A stretch of DNA of 64,000 nt, taken from contig NC_049992.1 of assembly GCF_000003815.2 (NCBI RefSeq), positions 18,116,957 to 18,180,956 of the forward strand, written 5' to 3'. Positions 1,621-64,000 of this stretch are shown here, piece after piece (the first letter of the stretch is position 1; every line of letters begins with the position of its first letter). Position numbers and translations under genes: made by a program. The notes below the pieces were generated by a model that worked only from the letters and a program-made list of their open reading frames with translations, did no database searches and had not been told where the DNA came from. Source of the DNA: Branchiostoma floridae (lineage: Eukaryota; Chordata; Leptocardii; Amphioxiformes; Branchiostomatidae).

Positions 1621-1992
1621 CACCAGGATGGCTATTCCCTGTGTTTACAGAAGAAACTGAATACTGTACCTTGTACAGAATTTCTTCTTTACTTTGTCAC
1701 AATAACTTGATGATGTCAAATGCATTTTAGACATGTGCAGACACACTAACTATATTTTGTAATTGATGGAGTCTCACAGAGTCTGGAAAAAAACTTTTAA
1801 GGATAAGCAGATGTAATCAAACGTTGACTCTTGCATGGATTCTAAACACATGATGGAGAAAATGGGTGAGGGTAGAGAATGGAGATTTCCTTTGTACAGT
1901 TGTCCCATAATAGTGTAGTGGTAGTATACAGTTTTGGGAAACTGGATTCTATCTGTGGGAAGCCTTTGTCCTGTTTTTATCCACTCCTTTCA

Positions 1993-2279
1993 GCTACGGC
2001 CACGTGGCGCGTTGGTACACCCGATCCCTCGATCTCGGAAGTTAAGCAACGAGCGGTCCGGACAGTACTTGGATGGGAGTCCCCCACCCAAGGACGTCCG
2101 GATTGCTGTAGCCTCACAAAGTTTTCCACGAAATCGTCTTCCGGGAGGGACGTAAAACGGGGGTCCCGTGCTCGAGGAGGTGCCTCGACCACGTTAAACA
2201 GCCTCATTACTCATACTTGGGGTACCTACTGGCTGGCAAAATACACCAGATGATTATCATTATTATTATTATTATTATG
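1993..2279 (+). mobile_element. 5S rRNA-derived SINE (SINE3-like)
   Basis: Positions 1993-2113 follow 5S rRNA from end to end: GCTACGGCCA at the start, GATCTCGGAAGTTAAGCA and GTACTTGGATGGGAG in the internal-promoter region, and TGCTGTAGC at the end. The middle is diverged, so it is not a working 5S gene. The sequence then runs without a terminator into an unrelated body (CTTCCGGGAGGGACGTAAAA) and ends in an ATT microsatellite at about 2251-2279. A 5S head, a body and a simple tail are the hallmarks of a SINE3-type element. A lone 5S pseudogene is the alternative, but the joined body and tail argue against it. Confidence 0.7.
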
Positions 2280-9100: not shown

Positions 9101-9519
9101 GTACATATACAATCATAATGGATTGTTATATATAATGTGTAGTATTTAAAGTAACAATATTGGAAATGCTGTTATTTCAAAATTATATCTTGCAATAAAA
9201 AGTATATATGTTGGTGACAGTTTCGGAGAATTAGACAACTTTTATCTTTCATTGTTTTGCGTTTTGGAAGGATAAATGTTTAATAAATTACAAACCAAAG
9301 TAGGTTACATCATCACACAAAATTCCCCAAAATGCTGTGTGATTCTTTTTGTAATTCTAACACAAGTGTTGTTTTTCAGGATTTTGAGGAGACCCTACAG
9401 CTGGTTGAAGAGTACAAGTTCCCCAGTCTGTTTATAAACCAGTTCTTCCCCCGACCAGGAACCCCGGCTGCCAAGATGCGGAGGGTTCCTCCACAGGAGG
9501 TATGTCAGCTTTCTCTCCT

Positions 9520-9581
<62 letters not shown>

Positions 9582-12524
9582 CCTCTCTCTCTCTTGCTGT
9601 GTCTCTGTCTCTCTCTCTCTCTCTCTGTGTCTCTCTCTGTCTCTCTCTCTCCCTGTCTCTCTCTCTCTGTCTCTCTCTCTGTCTCTCTCGCTGTGTCTCT
9701 GTCTCTCTCTCTCTCTCTCTTTTTTCTGTCTGTCTCTCTCTCACTGTCTCTCTCTCTCTCTCTGTCTCTCTCCCTGTCTCTCTCTCTCTCTTTTTTCTCT
9801 CTCTCTCTGTCTCTGTCTCTCTCACTGTATCTCTCTCTGTCTCTCTCTGTCTCTCATCTCTCTTCTCTCTCCCTCTTCCTCTCTCTATCTCCCTCCCTCC
9901 TTACATTTTAAATGTAACTTCTTATATACATCTTCCATAAAGTTGTGTTCAGCTACAAGTACATTTGTATCTCACTTATTATACTGTATACAATAGGTTT
10001 TGCAATGTTAAATAGTGACATATTGTACTAGAAATATAAGCTGAAATAGTCTGCTTTATTTATTTGTAGGTCAAAAGAAGAACAAAAGCAATATCAGAGC
10101 TGTTTCAGAGCTACAGACCATATGATCACAAGGTTTGTCTTCTCCTTTTTATGTTCCCTGCATTATGCACAAAATTAAAGTTTGACATTGAAAATATAAG
10201 TGTCCTCATGTATTACAGTTAAACTGTATTGTATGACTAGAGTTTTAGCCAAAGTCTAAAAAAAAATAGTGCCAACCCTATTTTTTTTCAGGAAACATGA
10301 AACACAACATTTCTTCCTAGGCCTTATTATATTGCATTTAATGAAAAGGGATATAGTCATGTTTGACAGATTCATCTGAATACTATATGTATGAACTTAC
10401 TACAATGTAGATGCGTGTTACGGTTTCTGGTGATTTATATTGACAATCACTCTATTTGCAGGTTGGAGAAATCCAGAATGTGTTAGTGACAGAAGAATCA
10501 CACGACAAGAAGTTTTATGTAGCACACAACAAGTACTATGATCAGGTGAGAAAAACCACATTGGGCATTCCTATAACCCTACATTTGAACCCAGACCTAT
10601 GAAAATGAGCAATGTTTTTGTCACATGTAAAATGATCCAAAATGAAGTTGTTTTTTTTGAGTGTTTTTTTTTTTTTCTATTTTGCTTTTGGACAGACGAG
10701 GACAATGTGGTACTGCACTCAAGTTTTGTAACTTATATTAACAGTGCCACATACACGGTACAGACAGAAGGTACCCATTTTTACACCTGGGTGAAGTGAG
10801 GAAGGTCGTGTAAAGTGCCTTTCCCAAGGGCACAACGTCGGGGCGGTGCACGGCGGGGATCGAACTCAGAACCTCTAGATTCCGAACCGAACGCTCTACC
10901 AGTTACGCCACACCCAACGCCTCTTTTTTTAGTTGTACAGGTGGAATTGCGAAGTCAGTAGAGGGCATTCTGTAGGTCGTGAGTTTGATCCCAAGCCAAG
11001 TCATTCCCAGTACTTTAAAATGTTGCATACTTCTCTCTCTGCTGAGCACTCAGCATTTGGGAAAGATTATGGATGTTGGACACACACCACTACCAGTGGA
11101 CTAGCCCCTGCTGTAGTGATTGAACATTTAAGGGCTATCGAAATGATGTTGCAATATGCTCCATCTGGTGTGGGAACAACTTGAACTTAAGGCCACACCA
11201 ATTCTATTTGTTGCCTCTCAGATTCTGTCCACCTTTTTCATTTTCAAAAAAAAAAGGTTCACAAACCTGTAAATATTACCATTCAGAGCCACATATTCAT
11301 AATTTCAGTCTAAAAACAATGTATTTTATTCAGAACATTGGTAACAAATTAAAGAAGGCTTCATTGTATAAAACGTGCCATTCAACTCCTCAGGCTGGTG
11401 TTTTTTTGTGTGTATATGAGTTGTATATCCTCACCTCAGACCTTTTTAAAAAATATCAGTCGGTCCAATTTTTTTTCACAAAAAATCAGAAAAGAAACAA
11501 ATAAATTTGGTGCAGCTTAAAGTTGTAAAAAAACATTTTTAGCTTCTCATATGGAAAAAAATTCTATCTACATTTGTAAAGGTTTTGATCATGAATATTT
11601 TAAAATCCTTTCAGGTTTTGGTACCCAAAGATGAGAAGTTGCTGGGAAAGATGGTAACAGTGGAGATCACGTCAACGGGAAAGCACTACCTCATGGGAAG
11701 GCTGCTGTCAGATGAAGTGACCAAGGTTGCCATAGCAACCCCGCTGCCCAAAGGAACCGTGTCAGGTGTACAAGACAACCTTCAGGTATGACCTTGGATA
11801 GTTTTTTTTTTTTTTCAAACTAGTAAATAGAGGGCTGTGCCCTCATACAATTGCCAAAATCACACACACACACTCACATGAGACACACACTCACATAAAA
11901 AGCACACACTCACAAACACACAAAACAGCACACAGAACCCAACATGTAACTTCTCTATGTCATACTAGCTTCGGGATAATGGTCAATATACGGGTGTTCT
12001 GGACTGGTATCTTACAGTAATACGATTTGGACATGCTTTGCGTCTGTTGTGTCATGTTCAAGGACACCAAGATTTCTCAACTTTTGGCTCATTTTGCATT
12101 GACGTGTGTGGGTTTTTTGTAAGTATTACACTAGTAATTCAAAATGATGTACTTCTCACCTGCAGTTCCAGCCCCCCATGGGTCAAAACACCACCCAGCC
12201 AATCTTACCTGCGGTCAGGCTGGTACCTTGAGCGATACAGAAATGTTGTGACTGACAAAGGTTATTGCAGCTTTGTCTAAACAAGGCTCTAAAATGGATG
12301 CATCCCACAGTAGCCTCACAGTTTATTTCTTCCGTGTTTAACAGGAAGCAACAGACAGCACAACAGTGACAGCACAATCCCCGCTGTCCTGGTGTCAGCA
12401 CCAGCTGTCCAGGGTGACTCCCGCCGGCATGCCTCGTTGGATGCAAGTGGCTGCTTTTGTTTTAGTTCTCGCTGTTGTTTTAGATTTTTGTAGGATTGTT
12501 TACAGAGTAGGGGCTAAATTCTAG
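6152..12524 (+). CDS. CDKAL1: CDKAL1, tRNA threonylcarbamoyladenosine methylthiotransferase (C-terminal nine exons)
   Basis: Exons: 6152-6255, 7169-7335, 8062-8207, 9040-9100, 9380-9499, 10070-10132, 10462-10545, 11615-11785 and 12345-12524. All have AG/GT borders and compatible phases, giving about 364 residues of the family's usual ~580. The first exon opens at the radical-SAM cluster motif CLNQCTYC (C-x3-C-x2-C), followed by [17 protein letters not shown]. Next come [13 protein letters not shown], the barrel motifs [11 protein letters not shown] and ICGFPTET, and a TRAM-like RNA-binding stretch in exons 10462 and 11615. The last exon holds a C-terminal hydrophobic anchor ([15 protein letters not shown]). 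The known family role is adding the methylthio group to t6A37 of tRNA-Lys(UUU) at the ER membrane, using SAM and two Fe-S clusters. The N-terminal MTTase domain must lie upstream. Introns hold MITEs, SINEs, a partial exon triplication and a long CT tract. Confidence 0.93.
6677..7023. mobile_element. MITE with CAGGGCTCGAAATA ends, in a CDKAL1 intron
   Basis: The termini are CAGGGCTCGAAATA and ATTTCGAGCCCTG; a short flanking repeat, CTAGC, lies at each side. Many internal copies of TGCAGGTA/TACCTGCA sit in both orientations. A second element with the same ends and length (345 bp) is at 19731-20075. Non-coding; superfamily uncertain (hAT-like ends, but a 5-6 bp duplication). Confidence 0.65.
7249..7620 (+). 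repeat. Partial CDKAL1 exon present three times in tandem
   Basis: The 3' part of exon 7169-7335 plus its donor and some intron is repeated. The units begin at 7249, 7388 and 7516 (steps of 139 and 128 bp). The second unit still codes for the exon's protein sequence but starts inside the exon and has a changed donor (GAG|GTTCGT). The third has a stop (CTG TAA) in place of CTG GAA. Only the first is joined to the rest of the exon, so only it is counted in the gene. Confidence 0.85.
8709..8775 (+). mobile_element. tRNA-like SINE head in a CDKAL1 intron
   Basis: A-box-like TGTGGTTAGAGT and B-box-like GGGTTCAAATCC are about 40 bp apart. The acceptor stem does not pair, so it is probably a tRNA-derived SINE remnant and not a tRNA gene. 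Confidence 0.4.
9518..9900 (+). repeat. (CT)n microsatellite beside a CDKAL1 splice donor
   Basis: About 380 bases of almost pure CT on the coding strand, interrupted by GT and TTTTTT. It begins 18 bases after the donor of exon 9380-9499. It makes long serine/leucine frames on one strand and Arg/Glu frames on the other, which are not genes. Confidence 0.95.
10740..10920 (-). mobile_element. tRNA-derived SINE (minus strand) in a CDKAL1 intron
   Basis: Read on the minus strand it starts GTGTGGCGTAACTGGTAGAG, with the B box GAGTTCGATCCCC about 40 bases later. The body follows with no acceptor stem. Confidence 0.55.
10931..11185 (+). mobile_element. tRNA-derived SINE (plus strand) in a CDKAL1 intron
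   Basis: A-box region TGGAATTGCGAAGTCAGTAG and B box GTGAGTTTGATCCC are followed by an unrelated ~180-bp body. It lies back to back with the minus-strand SINE just upstream, so the two heads face each other. Confidence 0.5.
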
Positions 12525-16217: not shown

Positions 16218-17216
16218 TTAAGAACTGTGCCCTGTGTGAGTTTGCATGTGTTTCTTCAGATGACTCCTCGTGGTGAACTGCTTGCTGCACTCCTCACACC
16301 TGTAGGGTTTCTCCCCTGTGTGAGTCCGCATGTGAGACTTCAGACTATTAAGCAGACTGAACTGCTTGCTGCACTCCTCACACCTGTAGGGTTTCTCCCC
16401 TGTGTGAGTCCTCATGTGTGTCTTCAGACTATTAAGCAGACTGAACTGCTTGCTGCACTCCTCACACCTGTAGGGTTTCTCCCCTGTGTGAGTCCTCATG
16501 TGTGTCTTCAGACTATTAAGCAGACTGAACTGCTTGCTACACTCCTCACATCTGTAGGGTTTCTCACCTGTGTGAGTCCTTGTGTGTTTCTTCAGATCAC
16601 CCAGCTGACTGAACTGCCTGCTGCACTCCTCACATCTGTAGGGTCTCTCACCTGTGTGAGTCCGCATGTGAGTCTTCAAATGACCCAGGTCACTGAAATA
16701 CTTGCTGCACTCCTCACACTTGTAGGGTTTCTCACCTGTGTGAGTCCGCATGTGAGTCTTCAAATGACTCAGCCTACTGAACTGCTTGCTGCACTCCTCA
16801 CACCCGTAGGGTTTTTCACCAGTGTGAGTTTGCATGTGTTTGTTCAGATTACCTAGCTCACTGAACTGCCTGCTGCACTCCTCACACCTGTAGGATTTCT
16901 CACCGGTGTGAGTCCTCATGTGTTTCTTCAGATTACTCAGCTGACTGAACTGCTTGCTGCACTCCTCACACCTGTAGGGTTTCTCCCCTGTGTGAGTCCG
17001 CATGTGTCCCTTAAGATGACTCAGCTGACTGAACTGCTTGCTGCACTCCTCACACCTGTACGGTTTCTCCCCTGTGTGAGTCCTGATGTGTATCTTCAGA
17101 CTATTAAGCAGACTGAACTCCTTGTTGCACTCCTCACATCTGTACCGTTTTGCAACCACAATTCTGCCAACAGACTTCCCTTCCACCACATCAGAGCTGG
17201 TTCCACTTGTTGCCAT
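16218..17216 (-). CDS. C2H2 zinc-finger protein with 11 fingers (copy A)
   Basis: A 332-residue single coding exon. The ATG at 17216 is chosen because both copies share MATSG(T) there, and a splice acceptor (TTTTTACAG) lies just upstream, so a 5' non-coding exon is likely. A 24-residue lead is followed by eleven 28-residue fingers (CEECxKxFxxLxxLKxHxRTHTGEKP) ending in HTGHSS. Each finger keeps two Cys and two His with TGEKP linkers, as in sequence-specific DNA binding. Fingers 8-10 are nearly identical (SLLNSLKT/S), a sign of recent finger duplication. No KRAB, SCAN or BTB domain is present. It is probably a nuclear transcription regulator; its target is unknown. Confidence 0.85.
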   Translation of the reverse strand: MATSGTSSDVVEGKSVGRIVVAKRYRCEECNKEFSLLNSLKIHIRTHTGEKPYRCEECSKQFSQLSHLKGHMRTHTGEKPYRCEECSKQFSQLSNLKKHMRTHTGEKSYRCEECSRQFSELGNLNKHMQTHTGEKPYGCEECSKQFSRLSHLKTHMRTHTGEKPYKCEECSKYFSDLGHLKTHMRTHTGERPYRCEECSRQFSQLGDLKKHTRTHTGEKPYRCEECSKQFSLLNSLKTHMRTHTGEKPYRCEECSKQFSLLNSLKTHMRTHTGEKPYRCEECSKQFSLLNSLKSHMRTHTGEKPYRCEECSKQFTTRSHLKKHMQTHTGHSS

Positions 17217-21467: not shown

Positions 21468-22466
21468 TTAAGAACTGTGCCCAGTGTGAGTTTGCATGTG
21501 TTTCTTCAGATAACTCCCCGTGGTGAACTGCTTGCTGCACTCCTCACACCTGTAGGGTTTCTCCCCTGTGTGAGTCCTCATGTGTGTCTTCAGACTATTA
21601 AGCAGACTGAACTGCTTGCTGCACTCCTCACACCTGTAGGGTTTCTCCCCTGTGTGAGTCCTCATGTGTGTCTTCAGGCTATTAAGCAGACTGAACTGCA
21701 TGCTGCACTCCTCACACCTGTAGGGTTTCTCACCGGTGTGAGTCCTTGTGTGTTTCTTCAGATCACCCAGCTGACTGAACTGTTTGCTACACTCCTCACA
21801 TTTGTAGGGTCTCTCACCTGTGTGAGTCCGCATGTGAGTCTTCAAATGACCCAGCTCACTGAAATACTTGCTGCACTGCTCACACCTGTAGGGTTTCTCA
21901 CCTGTGTGAGTCAGCGTGTGAGTCTTCAAATGACTCAGCCTACTGAACTGCTTGCTGCAGTCCTCACACCTGTAGGGTTTTTCACCAGTGTGAGTCAGCA
22001 TGTGTTTGTTCAGATTACCCAACTCACTGAACTGCTTGCTGCACTCCTCACACCTGTAGGATTTCTCACCAGTGTGAGTCCGCATGTGATTCTTCAGATT
22101 ACTTAGCTGACTGAACTGCTTGCTGCACACCTCACACCTGTAGGGTTTCTCACCTGTGTGAGTCCGCATGTGTCCCTTAAGATGACTCAGCTGACTGAAC
22201 TGCTTGCTGCACTCCTCACACCTGTAGGGTTTCTCCCCTGTGTGAGTCCTCATGTGTGTCTTCAGACTATCAAGCAGCCTGAACTGCTTGCTGCACTCCT
22301 CACACCTGTAGGGTTTCTCACCTGTGTGAGTCCGCATGTGAGTTTTCAGACGACTCGGATGATGGAACTCCTTGCTGCACTCCTCACACCTGTATCGTTT
22401 TGTAGTCACAATGCTGCCAACAGACCCCCCTTCCACCACATCAGATCTAGTTCCACTTGTTGCCAT
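21468..22466 (-). CDS. C2H2 zinc-finger protein with 11 fingers (copy B)
   Basis: 332 residues, the same length as copy A. It has the same start context (acceptor CTTTACAG, then ATGGCAAC) and the same HTGHSS ending. Fingers 3-10 match fingers 2-9 of copy A in order. Copy B has an extra N-terminal finger (HHPSRLK) and one fewer SLLNSLK finger near the C-terminus. All zinc ligands are intact. Some fingers differ in helix positions, so the two proteins may read overlapping but different DNA sites. Like copy A, it shows no partner domain and is probably a nuclear DNA-binding regulator. Confidence 0.85.
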   Translation of the reverse strand: MATSGTRSDVVEGGSVGSIVTTKRYRCEECSKEFHHPSRLKTHMRTHTGEKPYRCEECSKQFRLLDSLKTHMRTHTGEKPYRCEECSKQFSQLSHLKGHMRTHTGEKPYRCEVCSKQFSQLSNLKNHMRTHTGEKSYRCEECSKQFSELGNLNKHMLTHTGEKPYRCEDCSKQFSRLSHLKTHTLTHTGEKPYRCEQCSKYFSELGHLKTHMRTHTGERPYKCEECSKQFSQLGDLKKHTRTHTGEKPYRCEECSMQFSLLNSLKTHMRTHTGEKPYRCEECSKQFSLLNSLKTHMRTHTGEKPYRCEECSKQFTTGSYLKKHMQTHTGHSS

Positions 22467-34861: not shown

Positions 34862-34961
34862 NNNNNNNNNNNNNNNNNNNNNNNNNNNNNNNNNNNNNNN
34901 NNNNNNNNNNNNNNNNNNNNNNNNNNNNNNNNNNNNNNNNNNNNNNNNNNNNNNNNNNNNN
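34862..34961. other. Assembly gap (100 N)
   Basis: Exactly 100 N. The 5' exons of the coiled-coil/TAZ gene could lie here or further upstream. Confidence 1.
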
Positions 34962-35185: not shown

Positions 35186-35212
35186 ATTTGGACATCATGA
35201 TGCTTATCCTCA

Positions 35213-35815
35213 GTGTCCGAAATAAAACAAAGACTAAAAGACAACTTTATTCAAAACTTCTACTCAGATCTTAACTCTCTTGGCATGACGGAAAATCAAG
35301 GAAATAAGTTAAGAACTTACAGAAAATTTAAGCATTCGTATGAAAGAGAAAAATATCTGGATATAGCAAATTTTAGATATCGCCGGGCCATGACCAAACT
35401 AAGGATCAGCGATCATCCACTGGAAATTGAAGCTGGTAAATATAACCGAACTCCCCCTGATAATAGATTTTGTATATTTTGCGATAAGAGTTTCATGTAT
35501 GTAGAAAACGAAGTACACTTTGTCCTAGAGTGTTCGCTGTACAAAGATCTGCAAAATGCATTCGCTAATGCTACACATATAGATTAAAAATATGCGCACC
35601 TGACGAAGGAAGATTTGTTCAAATACCTTATGTCATCATCTAACTACGATATACTGGAAAAACTCTGCAAGCTCGTCCACGCATATTTTAAGAAGAGAGA
35701 AGAAGCATTTAAATTTTAATATATATGTATAGCTTTCTGATTACTTACTATGTACCAAACTGACTGCATTTAGCCCCAATGGGGCATGAATATGCAATAA
35801 ACTTCATTGTCATTG
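35213..35815 (+). mobile_element. 5'-truncated LINE, C-terminal reverse-transcriptase tail
   Basis: One frame runs to about 35720, broken by a single TAA at 35585-35587. It holds the post-RT tail seen in many LINEs: TKLRISDHPLEIE, then a zinc-knuckle-like CIFCDKS...ENEVHFVLEC, and YFKKREEAF before the final stop. The 3' end (CAATAAACTTCATTGTCATT) is typical of a LINE 3' terminus. No RT core is present, so it is a dead 5'-truncated copy. Confidence 0.78.
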
Positions 35816-36162: not shown

Positions 36163-39100
36163 GGTGGCTCGTTCCGCTCCAGTCGTGTTGATTTGGCTGT
36201 ATTAGAGGGTAACGTTAGATATCAGCTGGAAATTGAATGCTTGCAGAAACAGTTGTCCCAGAGTGTACAAGACAACCAACGCATCCAGGAAGAGAACAAA
36301 AGATTGCAGCAAGAGTTGTCAAACAGCCAGCAGGACACTGTAAGTGCTTTAAATCACCAAATGTTTTATTCAACCGTCGTCTTGGTTACAGTGTGTGTAT
36401 CACTTCCACGGGGCAATTCTGACTGGTTCTATACTATTAGGTGTTTCAGCTTAATATTCAATAGTAGATGTGGTCCTAAACGTCGGTTGAATAAAACTTG
36501 GTTGTGTACAAAGAATGTTCCTTATCTAGCAACTTACCAACCTGGATGTATTTTTTTTTATCTTTGATTGTTGGAATCAATGTAGTGTAATGGATTCTTT
36601 TTTTTTTACTGATTAATACGTCATACATGTACATGGGCCACGATAATGTTTAGTGCAGGTGTTCCGGACCAAGTGATAACATATCACAATTGGGGTTCTA
36701 CATTACATGTACTCGATGTTGATTTGATTTGATGTTGTTGCCAGTTGTTGTTCAAAGACACTAAATCATCTCAACTTTTGGCGCATTTGGCTTTGAAACG
36801 TGTGTTTTCTCAGGTGACCATGGGTATGACATAAATGAAATACAACAGTCCGGTCATACTAGTACCTCAATGATGCAGAATACACACTGTCAGTGTTGTA
36901 TCATAATGAAGAAATACTCTGTGACAGGCACATGTGGAGCAGTTGGTCAGAGAGATGAGAGAACTGCGGGTCCAGGTGGATAAAGGGAAAGAAGCATTAG
37001 AGTTGTCTACAGGCGAGGTACATCAGCAACAGGTAACCATTATTACTCATCTGTAATGCCCTAATAAGGTAATGGTGGAAGGTGCACCCATGTATATCCG
37101 GTGTATGGGGTACATGTACTTAGTGTCATTCTGTTTTTGAGCATAACATTTCAACACTAATGATGACTTTGTTGCATAACACGTTGTGTAATATAAGCAG
37201 ATGTAGGGATAAGAAAATTTTAATTAATGTTTTTGGATTTGATGTTTTTCTGACAGCACAAGTTCATTTGAAGTTTCATTGCCTCTGTCCAACAATATTT
37301 TCTAACTTACCCCCAACATCTGTTTTGAGTATAAAATGTGGTGATGGTACATGTGTTGGAAGCGACAGACTGATAAATATAGAAATTAGGAAAGCAACAG
37401 AATACAGATTCTGTATTTTTTTGGTTATTGGTTATTTGGTTTTTATTATTAAATTATTATGCATGCAATAATAGATTTAGTCATCCGTCTTACATTAGTC
37501 ATTCTCTGTTTGTTGCTTTATGCTATAACGTCCTTGCTTTATGTCAGGGGCAAATAGAGGACCTTCAGCGGGCACTCCAAGAAGCACGACAGGAAGTCCA
37601 GGAACTGACTGCGGCAAAAGAAAACTTCGAAACTAACACACAACAAGAAACGTGCAGATTGCAAGAGCGGTTGAGGTCATCAGAACGTCTTCTCCGGGAG
37701 GAAAAGGTAAGTCACTGGCTTTGGGCACAACACAATTGTAGTTATGTAAACTTGTCAAAAGCTTAAACATGTAAGACCAAAGCTTTGATCCACCTACACA
37801 AGTGCATATCGCATGAGACCATTGTTTTTTTGCCGGCGATCACAGAGCAAACTGTGGAAGGGCGGCACATTCTTCCCTTGAAATATGTGATTATCATTAT
37901 TTATATTATGAATATTGTTAATGTCAATGTTGGTACACAGAATTATTGAGCAAAAGCTTATAACTTTACAGATTGCCAATGAAAGAGCCTTGACAGACTT
38001 TGTGTCCCTGGTGGCTGTTGCTGTGCTCCTGAAGGCTACCATTGAGAGGGCCCTGCAAGAACTACAACATCTTGCAGTGCAAGTCAGGGACCTGGAGATG
38101 CTCCTCAGGAACTGCTTCTCTTTGGTAAGAAATACCAGTCAATATATCATTCATGTCGACTAACCGCATGCCCAATATGAAAAATAGAATATGAACAAGT
38201 TATACAGTATTATATATTTAATATTTCTCTCCAAACAGCAGACAGGGTATGAAAATTATTTATGGTGCACAAATTCATTGATGAGGGGTCTTTCCTGGGG
38301 TGTGGAACCATAACCCTAACTCCCTTTTCCAGGGTATTGGGCCAGGTTGACCAGGGCATTGGGCCGAGTTGGTCTGATAAGCCAAGAGCTGATTTGGAAA
38401 AGGACTGAATCATCTTGATCACATTAAGAAACTATACACAAATATGATATGATGTGTACTCAATATACACCATATCTCCATCAGTTGATAGATGTTAGTG
38501 ATACACAATACAAAATGTATTATCTATACATACATATTTTTTTTCGAAATGACTTTGATCCATCAGCTGGTACTAAAATGCCTCCTAACATGTCATACCA
38601 TGTTGATGGCATCAATACTTTCGATCATACTAATTGAGGCTGTGCTAGATGACAGTAAATGTTGAAGACAGCATGTCACTATTCAGCCAATAATTTCATT
38701 TCCAGCTCCCTGGTGCTAAGATGGTGGAAACATGCCTTCATCACATTCCATCCCTGGCCGGTGACTACTGCATAACAGTTGATCACCTTAAGAGGTGTTC
38801 AAGCTGTCAGCTAGTGATGCCTCTGTTGTATCACATAAGGACTTGTGACAAGTTCCGTTGCGAAAAGTGTGAAAAATTAGTGACCTTGTATATCGTGCAT
38901 ATATCGCACTGCCTGGAACCAAACTGTACAATTTCATACTGCATAGACTGTAGAACACTTTCTCAGCAACGTAACTTGTCAACACAAGACCTTGAGACAG
39001 ATCGACACTTGCGTGAATACGTGCAGAGTCATCTCAGAATACTTGCGTCCCAAGCAAATGAGGTAAATGTGACTATGTCATGTAGTTTCACATGTAGATT

Positions 39101-40708
39101 AGTTGTGTAAGTTGAATCTAAGCTTCTTTCATCTGTAGTATTCTAACAACCGTGGCCTAGTATAGTTGAGGTATTTGGGACAGTTCCGACAAGCAGTGAA
39201 ATTTTGTAAATCCTGAATATTGAATTTTTGTAACCTAATTCCGGACATCAATTTCCATGATAGCTTACTCTGGAACAATTGTACCTTTTGTATGGCTGCT
39301 GTAAAATGAAACTATTAGGTTTTGATTAAGAAGTAGTCTTAGTTAGAAACAGAATTGATTATCTGAATTTACTGAATTGTCTAAACATCCTTCAAGTATA
39401 CTTTACCTGCAATGACCTCCCATTGTTTAGAATATGTTCAAATTCACTCTCTACCTGTGCTTGATGCAGTGTGTGCAATAAAATTATAATAATGTGTGTT
39501 ATTCAACTTGCAAATAAACTTGTATTCAATTTTTTCTAGGTTAATGCCATCTTTGCTCATGGTCCTGGTGATGGCAACCCCTACCACAGTCGCCAAATGA
39601 CAGCTGCATTAAGGGTACGTAATAGCTGGTTTAAACTATCAATATTTAACAGTTAGACCAAGGAGTTTATATCAGGTATTTGGTTGTAATTAGCATTAAA
39701 AGAACAGAGTCCATCATGTTTGTTTCAGGCAATCATTACCACCTAGATTAGTTTCTTGATATAATAATTGACTTGACTAACTTGTTCCAACAACTCACCA
39801 TGTGCTACTTGCTCTCTGCATGCATCTCATGATCTGTTTCATGTTCAATTGTTACTTACTGATGCAATAAAATCAATTTGTATGTTGTATTTACTATTTG
39901 TCCTTACACATGTTGCTTCCCCGTCTGTAAAAACAATGCCTGGTATATTGATACTTTTAGTCTAAACATATAGCAGCTACTCTTGTCTGTCTGACTTGTT
40001 CTGTGATTCTCTGCTTCCTATTTTGTATAGCGATGTGATGCTGTCTTTCATGATACCTTTATCTAAGTTTAATTCTACTCCTCATCATCTTTGCTTCTTT
40101 CTGACAAGCTTCATGATGACTGCGGAAAACAAGTAAAAGTGAACCTAAAAGGTATTGCATCTTAATATCATTGCTTCGCTTTATCTTTTCTGCCTTCCAC
40201 TGTTTGGTTCTTTGTATGCAGGCCTTAGCATTTGCCTGGGCGCCATCCTTTCCCATTCAGATGCTTCCTCAAAATGTATTCCCCAAGGCACAATCATAAT
40301 AGTGTCACCAAACTGCAATTAACAGAGATGCCATCCTTGTGTTTGCAGGCATTGCTGATACTGTTCCCTTCGTACGTGAGACCAGTCGAGGAGCTTGTGG
40401 TGTGGTGTTTCAAACACCATGAGGAGTGGTCCTCACTTAGTCATGAGAGGAGCTGCCCACCATGCCGTATATTCCAGCATGACCTACGCAGATGTGGCAC
40501 CTGTCGTATCGATATGTGTGAAACATGTGTGATGGCTTGCTGCGCATGTGCAAAGCACACACTGGTGTGTCACAGTGAGGGCTGTACATTTCCATTCTGT
40601 CGAGGTCCGTTTAAGACCTTAGTGGGCCACAGAGATACAACTTATCCATCTCGAGTTGTCCTTTTGCTGTTTAGGGAGTATGTGCGCCAGATTTGTTTTC
40701 CTCACTGA
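36163..40708 (+). CDS. Coiled-coil protein with two tandem TAZ-type zinc domains (5' end missing)
   Basis: Seven exons: 36163-36339, 36928-37032, 37548-37706, 37972-38124, 38706-39062, 39540-39614 and 40349-40708. Every one is in phase 0 with AG/GT borders, and together they give 461 residues to the TGA. Residues 1-198 are Gln/Glu/Leu-rich heptads (VRYQLEIECLQKQL, LQRALQEARQEVQEL), so a long coiled coil. Residues 225-277 carry ligands H225, C229, C232, H241, C245, C250, C253, H263, C267, C272 and C277. The last finger (HISHCLEPNCTISYC) has the H-x3-C-x4-C-x4-C spacing of the CBP/p300 TAZ2 domain. Residues 374-426 repeat every spacing exactly, with Arg390 in place of one His. TAZ domains bind activation-domain helices, and the coiled coil suggests oligomers. 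The start exon was not found. A phase-0 micro-exon near 40110-40133 is possible. I know no named orthologue. Confidence 0.78.
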
Positions 40709-44656: not shown

Positions 44657-47600
44657 TCAGAAATATATCTTCTTTGTGACATTGATCATCTGCCTACACA
44701 TGGGACAGATTTTGTAGGCGTTCTTGACACATTTTGAGCACACAACCAAGTGACCACATGGTAAGAATGCGTATGCAATCTCTGCGTCCATGCAGATTTT
44801 GCATGATATCTTTTCTTTCACCCTTTCATGCTCCAGCCGCATTTCATTAAGTTGCTCTAGTGCTTTTGACGCATCTGGCCCAGTTTGCACAGACAATGAA
44901 CCAAACATCCCAATCTCATGCTTACTCATTGCCAGTGCGTTGCTATCATCCTTCAGGGGTATATTCCCCACATCATATCCAAGCACAAACTGACACCACT
45001 CATTCATATCTTCATGACATTGCAGTGGGTGATCCCCACACTTCCAATCACCTTTCACTCCACCGCACACAAAACACTCGACACACAGCTCCTTTCCGAT
45101 ATAAAAGAAGCCACCCTGTACAAGGCCTTTTGGAGCTATAGGTGAAGAAGGTGGCCAGGTCTCAAAGGTGCGCATCCTCACAGCCTCCCTGTGCAGTCCT
45201 CGTTTCCTCATGGTGTTGTGGAACGCTGTAGGACTTACAAATGGGATGTACCGTGGGCCATCTTGGTAAGGCAGAAGGGCTGCACCTGTTCAGGTATGAA
45301 TAAAAAGTTTATTTGTTTGATTGTTTGAACCTTTATTTACACATGAGAAGCTCAAATCGACCTGCTTTTCATTGAGGTCATGAAGGAGGTAAGGGTCAGA
45401 TAAAATATAACAGAGATACATTGAGTCCTAATAAATCTATCAACATACTAGTATATAACTACATATACATGGTACAAAACATTAGTAGAGCGAAAGCTCA
45501 GCAATCATAGTCCGTGTCCGGTTGTTTTTGTTCTTTCTTTTTCTTCAAGAGTAGGTACTTCACTTAAATAGAGATCTTTCAGCTACAGCTTGGGGGCATG
45601 TTAGGGACGAGAAGACTAGCCCATTCCAGTTGAATGTTCTAGCTAGAGAATTTGTTACATTTCCGAATAAATAAATAAATAACATTCACCATCATTGGTA
45701 ACACTTGGATTTGCATTTAACTGTTAGCACACTTACGTCGAACGATGCCGGTGGCTCCGGTGTACCGAAAGTGCGAAAAGGAACGAAAAGGAGCGAAAAG
45801 GAACGAAAAGGAACGAAAAGGAACGAAAAGGAGCGAAAAGGAACGAAAAGGAGCGAAAAGGAACGAAAAGGAACGAAAAGGAGCGAAAAGGAACGAAAAG
45901 GAACGAAAAGGAACGAAAAGGAAAGTACCGAAAGTGCGAAAAGGAACGAAAAGGAAAGTACCGAAAGTGCGAAAAGGAACGAAAAGGAACGAAAGGATTG
46001 GATAGGAACGAAAAGGAACGAAAAGGAAAGTACCGAAAGTGCGAAAAGGAACGAAAAGGAACGAAGTATGAAGCAAAGTGAAATAAAATCGATGGGAATA
46101 TAAGGTAACGGTACTGTGATCGGCAAATGCATTCGAAACGGACTTTATTTTTGTATTTTGTGGCTTGTTCCACGAAATTCCTAGAGCTCCAATGGTTCAA
46201 CGGCGAACCGGCGGGAAAGTGCACGCGTGGAAATAGCTAAATACAAATCAAAGGCGATGGGCGGAGTCACGAATCAGTGCGTCCCGGGTTCCCACGCGGG
46301 CTGTCACAGATCAAATTGGGAGGAGGGGGGGGGGCTTGAAAGCCGCTGAGTAGCGCGCTAGAAAAACGTTTGACGGGTTGACATTCTCGTGTAGGTTATT
46401 TTTCTACGGTCCCAAAAATGTCACAAAGTCGTTTTCTAGTGGTCCCGGCCTAAATTATAAGTGGCCCCGGGCAATCGGGACACCGCGTTGATTTCTATTC
46501 GAGGCCTGGTTCCAAAGAATTTTTCTGCCGAACCCGCACGGGAGACGTGAGTCGCCCGCCAGATCTCTCCGTAGTTTCCCAATATCCTTTGCACAAATTC
46601 CTCACGTTGGCCATTTCTTACCGCAAAATGATTAATATTCATGGTACAACGCGAAGAAAACTCCTTGGTACAATGTATACATGTCTATCCTTTCACAGCT
46701 TTTCTTTTGTCGTGAACGAGCAAGAAGATATGTCTCCAGTCTCCAGAAAACCATGTTGTGGGCCCTGTTGAAGGGAGCTGTCATGCTCGTGGGGCAGCAG
46801 TTTATTAGCATATCCTTCCTGACCGGACTTCTATTAGACATAAACAATCGCAGGTCATTTGCATGCGGCGCTCCCATCTTTGATCTTGGGAGAACAGAAG
46901 CCACCCAAATACAACAACAACGCTACAATCTTGCCTCATTCTGAAAATGTATATTAATCGATATTTATCCATCACCCACCAGTAACTGAATTTTAGTCCT
47001 TACTTTCTTATCTCAGTTCTGTTTCCTTGTATTTCGCTGATCTTCAGAGAATAATTTAGCCACACAAAGACAACAGCCTAAAACAGCCCCGTAAAAATTT
47101 GATATTGCCAAATTCTGAGTAAAATAAAACACGTTTCATAGGCTTCTAACGCCCGCAGTACCGGTTCCTTATATTCTCATTGATTTTATTTTAGTTTGCT
47201 TCATACTTCGTTCCTTTTCGTTCCTTTTCGCACTTTCGGTAGACCCGGTGGCTCGGGGGGCTTGAGTCGCCACTGTGGCAGCATATCCTCCCAGAGCTTC
47301 CATGATCTTGCAATGTAGATTGATATCAGTGATTACAAATACATGGTTACTATGAACTGTCTTTTTATTTGAGATGTGTGTATGGTTGACAGCAGAGTGT
47401 AGGTTCGCAGCTATTTCAGTATGTAACGCGCATTGAAATAAAAGATTGCAACAGCAATGTTCCTTTACATCTTGTCTACACCAAGGTACAATTGTGTCTT
47501 GGAAAACAGTGATTTTCTGTGTTCAAGAATGAAGCAAAAAGTCAAAATACTTCTGATGTCACCTACCTCTTGTGGACTTGTGGCAAAGCTGGGGAAGTAG

Positions 47601-61641: not shown

Positions 61642-62125
61642 ATGTCTCGGGGTCTGCTCGGGTTGTCAGCTGTGCTGCTAGCGGCCTTCCTCGTGAGGAG
61701 CGCCGAAGGACTGGACGGAGACGCTCCGGTGCGGTCGAACAGGCAGTGCCATGAAGATAACCTGATGAAGCGCGTGCGACGGGCCACCGCCATCGTGACC
61801 GGCACGGTCGAGCAGAAAATGAACGGCTACCCCGATGGAAAGTACAAGGCGAAAGTCCGAGTCTGGAGGGTTATGAAAGGTACGAACGAGATCCCCACCG
61901 CCAATAGAGTCCAGCCGCTCCGGGACCCGAGCAGGGGTGTAGCGGAGGTTATGGTGGACGGCTTCGGGGATCCCCACATCTGCGACAACGAGGTGGACCA
62001 GGGCGACACGCGGATCTTTCTCTTGGACAAGAAGCCGGCAGGCCCTCCGGACGAGTTCGAGCTGACCTCCAGTCTGATCCGAGTCACCCTGGATAACCTC
62101 ATACACGCAGAGTCCGCCGTCAAAG
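61642..62125 (+). CDS. AGRN: Agrin, first coding exon with NtA domain
   Basis: Translation from the ATG gives a signal peptide (MSRGLLGLSAVLLAAF, cleaved near residue 23). The NtA domain follows at about residues 34-155. Family motifs are TAIVTGTVEQ, KAKVRVWRVMKG, GFGDPHICDNEV, GDTRIFLLD and SSLIRVTLDNL; these align with vertebrate agrin NtA (VVLTGTVEE, KVRVWRYLKG, GFGDPLICDN, GDTRIFF). NtA holds agrin in the basement membrane by binding the laminin coiled coil. The exon probably ends at AAAG|GTCGGT, a weak donor; no better one is near before the stop at 62176. Follistatin, SEA and laminin-G exons must lie beyond the window. Base composition here is more GC-rich than around it, consistent with a first exon. 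Confidence 0.87.
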
Positions 62126-64000
62126 GTCGGTTTCACAAACACACACCTTCTCTACATATTGTTATATCTAACGGCTAAACAAATTAACGATACACGCACG
62201 AAATCCCAGATACGTAGGGAAAATTAAGACTAAAATTTCCCCCCACAACAACTTTTCCTTACTGCAATACCTTAGATTTTAGGGGCGTGAACAAGACATG
62301 TCTGTAAGAAACCCCCCATCCCCTTCTTCCAGTTTGTTATCTTCACCTATTTCAATTGGAAAGTTTTAACAGGATTTTAGGGGACATATCAGCTAAGTTT
62401 GCTCGGAAACGTTGAGGGTTTGACTTTGTGCTTTGCTGGGTGTTGATGTGTGAAAGATCTAGACTGTAAACATTTCTAATATTTCACGAGACTGAAGAGG
62501 GTGTCAAAGTAAAAACTCGAGATTCGAGAGGTTTTTGAGACAGCCTGCATGCCCCCCTCCCCACCCTTCCTGTGTTTCTCCTTTCTTGTCAAGAGGTGGG
62601 ACAGAAGGTATAGCATAACAAGACCCAACACAGAAAGGGCTTTGTAAAATCAATAAAAAGGAATATGGTCGGAGGAAGAAAGAAGTGGACAAGGCCGACC
62701 CCAGGTCACCCCAGTGAGCTCACTCGCCTCCTGCTAGGCAAAAAAAAAAATCCCCCAACTCAAAGTCCACCTAATTAGCCCAGTTGTAGCTTTCTAAACT
62801 CACCAGTTGAAGAGATAAGAGAAGAGGGGTTTGGAGATCAAAGTTGAGATACACACAGGGCTATCCCCTGGTTAGCTAGGCTGTAATCCAGGGTGGTCTA
62901 GGGCATGTTCCCCAGCCTGGCTCGACTACCCCCATGGTGAAATCCGACCCCTTAGCATCAGAACTGCGGACCCCAAGGAGAAAGAAACCCAAGTTTGTGC
63001 AGGGAGGGGGATGCTTTGTTTAGCTTCAAAACAAGACCAGTTGCCTAGCCCTAAGACACCTAGCTCCTGAAAGACCCAGCCAGTGCCCAGGATTAATTTA
63101 ACAGGGGATTTTGGTTAAAAGGAGGGTGAAAACTGTCCCGTTGTGTATGGTGGCAACTGGAGCCAGTCTGCTAGTGTGGAGTGGGCTTCAACTGAAAGAA
63201 CTCTGCTTGTGTATGGTGTATTGAGTTTCCTCCCATTCAGTCCAGAGAGGTGGTAAAAATATTTGTGTTTTGGCGTGTGCATGACTGGTGCTTGGACTTC
63301 CTAGCTGCCAAGTCTGGTAACCTATTACACCCAACCACCCCTCGACTCAACTCTAACTAGAACTGTGTCGTCACCAGCGAATAAAGGGTTTTATCCCGCC
63401 CCAAAAATAATCCGTAGGTTAAATGGGGGGCCCTATTATTTGCGTAGATACCGCCGGGCTTGTATACCAAACTTCTCGGGATGCCCTATATAACCTGAAT
63501 AAGCGGGGAGGAAAGATCAGCCAGATCTGTGTCGGAGATAACAAAAACGAGCTTGTCCAACATTTGCCATTCATATGCAACGCTTATGTGTATTAGGAAA
63601 TTAAGCTGTTCCTGAATGGAAAGGTACAAAAGAGGTGCTTTTACACCTATGGCAATTTAGGAGGGTTAGCAAGGGGCAACCCTGTAATCTAAGTGTCCGA
63701 GGGAATGATTTAGAGTCGCTCAAATTACAGGTATGACCTGGCAACACGCTAAGAATTGTTGATGAAACAGATGAGTTCTGTGATGAAAATTGTCGCCATC
63801 CGCCCATCCTGATTGATAGAGGTTGTAAGAACCGACGATACCTGTTGATCAGGGCTGTAAATCTCATTAGGTGAAACAAAAGGTTCATTTAGATAAGTGG
63901 ATGGGGTAAGAGATGGGAGGTACTGTTAGGAGAAGTTATACTGGGCTCCAAATTAAAGTTACCACTTGGTGTTGATCCTATAATGCGAAAGATGGCCTCG
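62126..64000. other. Agrin intron 1 (start)
   Basis: I find no second agrin exon before the window ends. The stretch is unremarkable apart from C- and A-rich patches. Confidence 0.55.

Follow-up and report, generated by a model that had tools for sequence, protein, structure and literature searches.

A 64-kb stretch of DNA from the lancelet Branchiostoma floridae (64,000 nucleotides of NC_049992.1, hereafter the window) contains a gene that appears to encode a coiled coil followed by two cysteine- and histidine-rich modules akin to the TAZ2 domain of CBP/p300. In the 513-Mb assembly that was searched, the window maps to contig C14, + strand. Seven open exons on the + strand, A to G, are bordered by AG/GT and can be joined in phase 0 (Table 1). 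Exons A to D encode 198 proline-free residues that are likely to form a coiled coil, exons E and G carry one module each, and a provisional linker exon, F, lies between them. With a slash marking the exon border, the acceptors of exons E and G read TTTCCAG/CTC and TTTGCAG/GCA and the donor of exon E reads GAG/GTAAAT; the stop codon of exon G is TGA, at positions 40706-40708.

The two modules share a common arrangement of cysteines and histidines. A widened pattern, C-x2-C-x8-[HRQ]-x3-C-x3..9-C-x2-C-x9-H-x3-C-x4-C-x4-C, is found at two places in a six-frame translation of the window, and these are the two modules. At a single fixed offset the modules have ten identical Cys/His positions, whereas the best of 3000 shuffles had eight. 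Their Smith-Waterman score of 70 narrowly exceeds the maximum of 69 found in 5000 shuffles, and BLASTP aligned them with 25/107 identical residues (E = 5e-4). Chance as the origin of this likeness was rejected on the basis of the shuffles and, more strongly, of the ligands conserved in a paralog described below. No third copy was found in the window with a hidden Markov model (HMM) of the two modules. An earlier note on this DNA had described related Cys/His modules in exons E and G, and the open frames and flanking sites that it gave for them are confirmed. Its exact p300 TAZ2 spacing for finger 3, H-x3-C-x4-C-x4-C after C-x2-C-x9, is likewise seen in the alignment. The eleven-ligand pattern given there recurs in both exons, but three of its details, namely finger 1, an arginine counted as a ligand and the x8 spacing in the paralog, had to be amended.

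A second gene with the same layout lies on contig C141. Besides the query itself, genome searches returned C141:52660-53004 for module 1 (34% identity, E = 3.7e-19) and C141:54232-54552 for module 2 (41% identity, E = 5.5e-18), and in reverse searches from the C141 modules the window gene ranked first apart from the queries themselves. The exon order on C141 (B', C', D', E', F', G' and stop) matches that of the window gene, with AG/GT borders and phase 0; exon E' is 34% identical to exon E and exon G' 39-41% identical to exon G. The coil exons also align: against 2000 shuffles each, the Smith-Waterman score was 103 for exons C and C' (shuffle maximum 58), 54 for D and D' (shuffle maximum 49) and 46 for B and B' (one shuffle as high). 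Identity between the genes at codon positions 1, 2 and 3 of exons C, E and G is 53, 60 and 31%, a pattern as expected under purifying selection. Modules at the same position are more alike between genes (40/118 identical for module 1, 45/118 for module 2) than the two modules within one gene (26/108 and 20/113; module 1 versus module 2, 18-24%), which places the module duplication before the gene duplication.

Because the second gene has coil exons B-D, both modules, the junctions and all candidate ligands, the order coiled coil-TAZ-TAZ is very probably a real architecture. Its recurrence with AG/GT junctions and codon-position bias makes an accident of annotation unlikely, and an artefact of the gene model was rejected on account of the matching exon order. 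The internal duplication of a TAZ module behind a coiled coil, as the earlier note had proposed, is thereby borne out. We also considered whether the gene might have decayed or lost its function, or whether joining exons by eye had fused two adjacent genes into a chimera. Such an origin would fit the divergence of module 2, the dissimilarity of exon F to its counterpart, the missing counterpart of exon A and the false domain combinations known from lancelet gene predictions, as mentioned in an excerpt of PMC4967905. In the paralog, however, the order and phases of the exons, the ligands and the coil are retained at a module identity of 34-41%, and more change is seen at third codon positions; we regard decay or chimerism as highly improbable and already largely refuted.

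Beyond the two genes, all places found in the module searches were weak (E from 0.016 to 0.68). Module 1 returned places on C8 (E = 0.016), on C7 where the TAZ2 of CBP lies (0.069), and at a TAZ2 on C215 (0.12), and module 2 a place on C8 (0.42); the first reverse search with a paralog module gave C4 (0.21 and 0.68) and C212 (0.21), and the second gave C9 (0.27). Translation of the stronger C8 match (L011, E = 0.016) showed many stops. Apart from the two modules, the frame matches between the window and C141 resemble, by eye, repeats that both stretches share (best 60 of 72).

The comparison of four modules refines the set of candidate zinc ligands. Invariant in all four are C10, H13, H27, C31, C34, C47, C52, C55, H65, C69, C74 and C79 in module-1 numbering. 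Two of the conserved positions, forming C-x2-H, are extra and lie upstream (C10/H13 in module 1 and C20/H23 in module 2), which brings the candidates in finger 1 to five rather than the three first described. H43 is specific to module 1; module 2 has R48 at that place, and the paralog has serine. The adjoining C49 is kept in both module-2 copies, and because R48 is replaced by serine in the paralog while C49 is kept, C49 rather than R48 is probably the ligand in module 2. Set against the three zinc sites of a TAZ domain, each with four His/Cys ligands, fingers 2 and 3 are complete in module 1, and finger 2 of module 2 requires C49 in place of the histidine; in module 1 of the paralog, the x8 of the pattern is x9. 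Between the paralogs, the candidate ligands are kept at 13/13 positions in each module, compared with 0/6 and 1/9 for the other cysteines and histidines, C10, H13 and C49 having been chosen as candidates after the alignments were inspected. The eleven positions first described are kept at 11/11 in module 1 and 10/11 in module 2. In all four modules a glutamate follows the first cysteine of finger 2 (C-E-x-C); proline or arginine stands there in the five TAZ2 sequences used for comparison.

The kinship of the modules was assessed by profile comparison with the PDB, counting p300/CBP TAZ2 chains among the sequences listed. With module 1, 14 of the 15 sequences listed were p300/CBP TAZ2 (best E = 7.4e-6), and with both module-1 copies all 15 (best E = 8e-6). 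The two module-2 copies together gave 13 of 14 (best E = 2.8e-4), and for module 2 singly all six sequences listed were p300, at a non-significant E of 4.9 to 6.8. Combining modules 1 and 2 gave TAZ2 in 15 of 18 (best E = 4.3e-7), and combining the four modules of both genes, in 15 of 17 (best E = 4.9e-10). In hhalign, the four modules matched a set of five TAZ2 sequences from this genome with E = 3.7e-7 and a probability of 92.9%, and module 1 matched the genome's TAZ2 with E = 4.7e-6 and a probability of 86.4%. The likeness resides in fingers 2 and 3, whereas finger 1 is altered. These comparisons make it very likely that module 1 descends from TAZ, a fold that, according to an excerpt of PMC9870903, bundles four helices and holds zinc in its loops, and point to the same descent, as a likely one, for module 2.

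Non-TAZ matches were weaker: the Midline chains 2dja (E = 0.36) and 2jun (E = 1.8), which we take to be TRIM/B-box proteins, the HERC2 ZZ domain (E = 0.028 and 0.079) and Pfam IBR_1 (E = 0.97). The earlier note had itself pointed to a better match with TRAF or B-box as evidence against a TAZ identity; zf-TAZ or p300/CBP TAZ2 was the best match in every search. The protein could still be a signalling or ubiquitin adaptor of the TRIM or TRAF type, with a coil and with zinc modules that merely resemble TAZ. It pairs zinc modules with a coil, starts the modules with a B-box-like C-x2-H, shows the weak Midline and IBR_1 matches and has an unseen 5' end with room for a RING. However, in the search that listed Midline, TAZ2 has the lower E value by about six orders of magnitude, and no RING, B-box, TRAF or MATH is among the Pfam matches listed to E = 10 (for the coil, the best 25 of 34). 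The coil here precedes the zinc modules, whereas in TRIM and TRAF proteins, as generally described, zinc comes before coil. We judge such an adaptor to be quite improbable.

Heptad periodicity is consistent with a coiled coil in exons A to D, whose scores were equalled in 11, 18, 1 and 1 of 300 shuffles, respectively. This part of the protein has weak matches to Pfam coiled-coil families, all below the cut-offs (best 25 of 34).

In animals, TAZ domains are chiefly known as the hubs through which CBP/p300 bind activation domains. In an excerpt of PMC9870903, ten named residues line the groove of p300 TAZ2 that receives the activation-domain helix. Eight of them (K1760, M1761, R1763, V1764, I1781, Q1784, L1785 and L1788) were mapped onto the modules by ligand offset. 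The four modules keep 2, 1, 0 and 1 of the eight, whereas the CBP of the same genome keeps 8/8. K1760/R1763 are replaced by Leu/Pro, Arg/Thr, Ile/His and Ile/Thr. In the four modules this stretch carries a net charge of +1, -1, +3 and +5, in contrast to +13 in the genome's CBP TAZ2. Because the basic charge and nearly all mapped groove residues are gone, p300-like binding of acidic activation domains by these modules is unlikely. The earlier suggestion of a scaffold that binds activation-domain helices is not supported by these counts.

The genome's own CBP gene can be placed on contig C7, where all four HAT_KAT11 matches found in the genome sit between a TAZ2 match (20284748) and a TAZ1-like match (20307936). 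The genome search gave no HAT_KAT11 on C14 or C141, and the window protein, as far as its sequence is available (exons A to G), had no Pfam match to HAT, bromodomain, KIX or ZZ. These observations bear on the possibility that the protein is a transcriptional adaptor, a CBP relative without a HAT that binds activation-domain helices and titrates or clusters transcription factors. In its favour, both modules are kin to TAZ2, module 1 of the window retains two hydrophobic groove positions, L58 and L61, and p300 TAZ2 recognises hydrophobic motifs according to an excerpt of PMC12312386. The net charge of -1 to +5 rather than +13 speaks against it, acidic segments being important for MITF-TAZ2 binding in the available part of PMC10522771. 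So does the substitution of K1760 and R1763, peptide contacts in p300 according to the excerpt of PMC9870903, as does the lack of a HAT match near the window gene. An adaptor of this kind seems unlikely to us.

Further CBP-like TAZ2 copies occur in pairs on C215 (473137 and 503139) and C2 (30519349 and 30527699), and not on the contig that carries the HAT of CBP; in the C2 frame at 30519349, the TAZ2 stretch is partly repeated. Like the window modules, they are TAZ2 sequences off the HAT-bearing contig, but they are 63-84% identical to CBP TAZ2 and lie above the Pfam cut-off; their similarity to the window modules is weak. Matches to zf-TAZ also lie on C16 (6976419 and 6977625) and C19 (16662018), again away from the contig with the HAT of CBP; the two of these three that were translated are TAZ1-like by eye. 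The net charges of the four CBP-like copies are +14, +5, +12 and +14.

We propose that the gene encodes an oligomeric coiled-coil scaffold with paired, groove-less modules derived from TAZ2, and hold this explanation as a whole with moderate confidence. An N-terminal coiled coil of ~200 residues would bring chains together, each presenting two zinc-stabilised modules derived from CBP/p300-type TAZ2. Each module would have retained the zinc core (fingers 2 and 3), remodelled finger 1 and lost the basic activation-domain groove. The pair of modules would then bind helical segments of partners other than activation domains, with avidity supplied by the coil; this scaffold mechanism with a non-activation-domain partner is put forward tentatively. 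Zinc binding, fold, oligomerisation and partner binding are all features that we infer from the sequence. With two genes of this layout in the genome, the TAZ module has apparently been put to use beyond CBP/p300, for binding something else.

Several observations weigh against this proposal. The profile search that the earlier note had pointed to matched module 1 just below the cut-off (Pfam zf-TAZ, PF02135, 23.2 bits, E = 9.9e-5, cut-off 25 bits), and the score fell to 18.5 bits in the joined gene model and was 17.2 bits for module 1 of the paralog. Module 2 of either gene had no Pfam match, and neither the window gene nor the paralog is among the nine matches of a whole-genome zf-TAZ search. 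Adding the paralog copy brought module 1 no gain against p300 (E = 8e-6 versus 7.4e-6). The top PDB match of the module-2 copies, 6fgn, is helped by the p63 portion fused to it, and the TAZ2 chain ranked after it has E = 0.015. In hhalign, module 2 reached the genome's TAZ2 with a probability of only 39% (E = 3.2e-4), and modules 1 and 2 matched each other with only 44%. Finger 1, with five candidate ligands in a non-standard order, is unlike that of TAZ2. Heptad scoring is a crude test, since the non-coil exon E also scored high (7/300 shuffles). The groove mapping excludes two helix-1 residues, and the x9 spacing blurs its helix-2 part in module 1 of the paralog. One of the CBP-like TAZ2 copies (L004, C215:473137) has a charge of +5 and serine at the K1760 and R1763 positions, and loss of groove and charge thus arises within the CBP-like set too; this copy is possibly a halfway state in losing the activation-domain groove.

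The gene model also has gaps that count in the same direction. Exon F and the phase-0 exon F' at the same place do not align (1576 of 2000 shuffles scored as high), no counterpart of exon A was found in the 28 kb upstream of the paralog, and scans of the window for coil-like exons did not find the 5' exons. When frames of the window were compared with a 49-kb part of C141, no 5' exon was among the best 60 of 72 matches, and the one candidate start peptide tried for the 5' end was unsuccessful. The upstream open pieces scanned had no Pfam match above the cut-off, and an NCBIfam search found nothing. The coding-potential scans, based on a human codon table, were rough.

Compared with known systems, the window protein resembles CBP/p300 TAZ2 in having fingers 2 and 3 in the same order with nearly the same spacing, exact in finger 3, and TAZ2 is the best PDB match of both modules. 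It differs from CBP/p300 in its remodelled finger 1, a finger 2 loop of x4 instead of x7, the absence of both the positive charge and the groove for activation domains, and the presence of two TAZ2-type modules behind a coil. TRIM and TRAF adaptors are likewise coiled-coil oligomers carrying zinc modules, but have other zinc folds and another domain order, and neither family is matched here. Plant BTB-TAZ (BT) proteins, by general description, also join TAZ to an oligomerisation domain without a HAT, but this domain is a BTB rather than a coil and the TAZ is single. The BTB-TAZ architecture is named in the title of PMC7324939.

The open literature offers no direct precedent among the matches listed: no title or abstract opening described a coiled-coil TAZ protein or a TAZ outside CBP in lancelets. 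The word TAZ is absent from the main text of the lancelet papers PMC12373286 and PMC6071037. An excerpt of a genome survey (PMC5560861) gives TAZ-HAT-ZZ as the consensus layout; because the survey, in that excerpt, took only TAZ genes with a HAT, it is silent on coil-TAZ-TAZ proteins. A jellyfish gene list, in the part available of PMC8748825, includes a CREB-binding protein-like zf-TAZ gene.

Other features of the window are listed in Table 1. An assembly gap lies upstream of exon A. Other open frames include one with a BIR domain downstream of the gene on the opposite strand, an exon with an N-terminal agrin domain and two C2H2 zinc-finger arrays.

Table 1 Exons of the coiled coil-TAZ-TAZ gene and other features of the window (positions counted from the first nucleotide of the window).
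Feature	Position	Strand	Remarks
Exon A, coiled-coil segment, 59 aa	36163..36339	+	Open frame, AG/GT, phase 0 at both ends
Exon B, coiled coil, 35 aa	36928..37032	+	Open, AG/GT; aligns with paralog exon B'
Exon C, coiled coil, 53 aa	37548..37706	+	42% identity to equally long paralog exon C'
Exon D, coiled coil, 51 aa	37972..38124	+	Open, AG/GT; aligns with paralog exon D'
Exon E, candidate TAZ module 1, 119 aa	38706..39062	+	zf-TAZ 23.2 bits; p300 TAZ2 E = 7.4e-6
Module 1 core, C10 to C79	38733-38942	+	Within exon E
Exon F, linker, 25 aa, provisional	39540..39614	+	Open, AG/GT, phase 0
Exon G, candidate TAZ module 2, 119 aa and stop codon	40349..40708	+	p300 TAZ2 E = 2.8e-4 with module-2 profile; 39-41% identity to paralog exon G'
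Module 2 core, C20 to C84	40406-40600	+	Within exon G
5S rRNA family match	1992-2114	+	52.9 bits
Simple repeat rich in Arg/Glu/Asp	9398-9900	-	Several frames open
C2H2 zinc-finger array	16272-17204	-	Closely like the next array by eye; the one of the two scanned against Pfam
C2H2 zinc-finger array	21504-22442	-	Closely like the preceding array by eye
Assembly gap	34862-34961		Upstream of exon A
Open frame like C-terminal part of a retroelement, by eye	35201-35587	+	Between gap and exon A; no Pfam match
Open reading frame with BIR (inhibitor of apoptosis) domain	44810-45283	-	Pfam BIR, 56.5 bits
Exon with N-terminal agrin (NtA) domain	61648-62130	+	88.2 bits; signal-peptide-like start by eye

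If the scaffold proposal is true, conservation of a TAZ-TAZ protein that lacks the groove would amount to a natural experiment: it would set the zinc core, which serves the fold, apart from the basic groove, which serves activation-domain binding, and would show that the TAZ module can be recruited to other roles. More speculatively, the two genes may represent a lancelet or wider invertebrate family in which a TAZ2 module that had left the transcription machinery underwent duplication, shed the surface for activation domains and came to serve a coiled-coil oligomer as its recognition end. Such a scaffold would be comparable to TRIM and TRAF proteins but built on a TAZ fold, with a new class of partner and a re-plumbed first zinc site.

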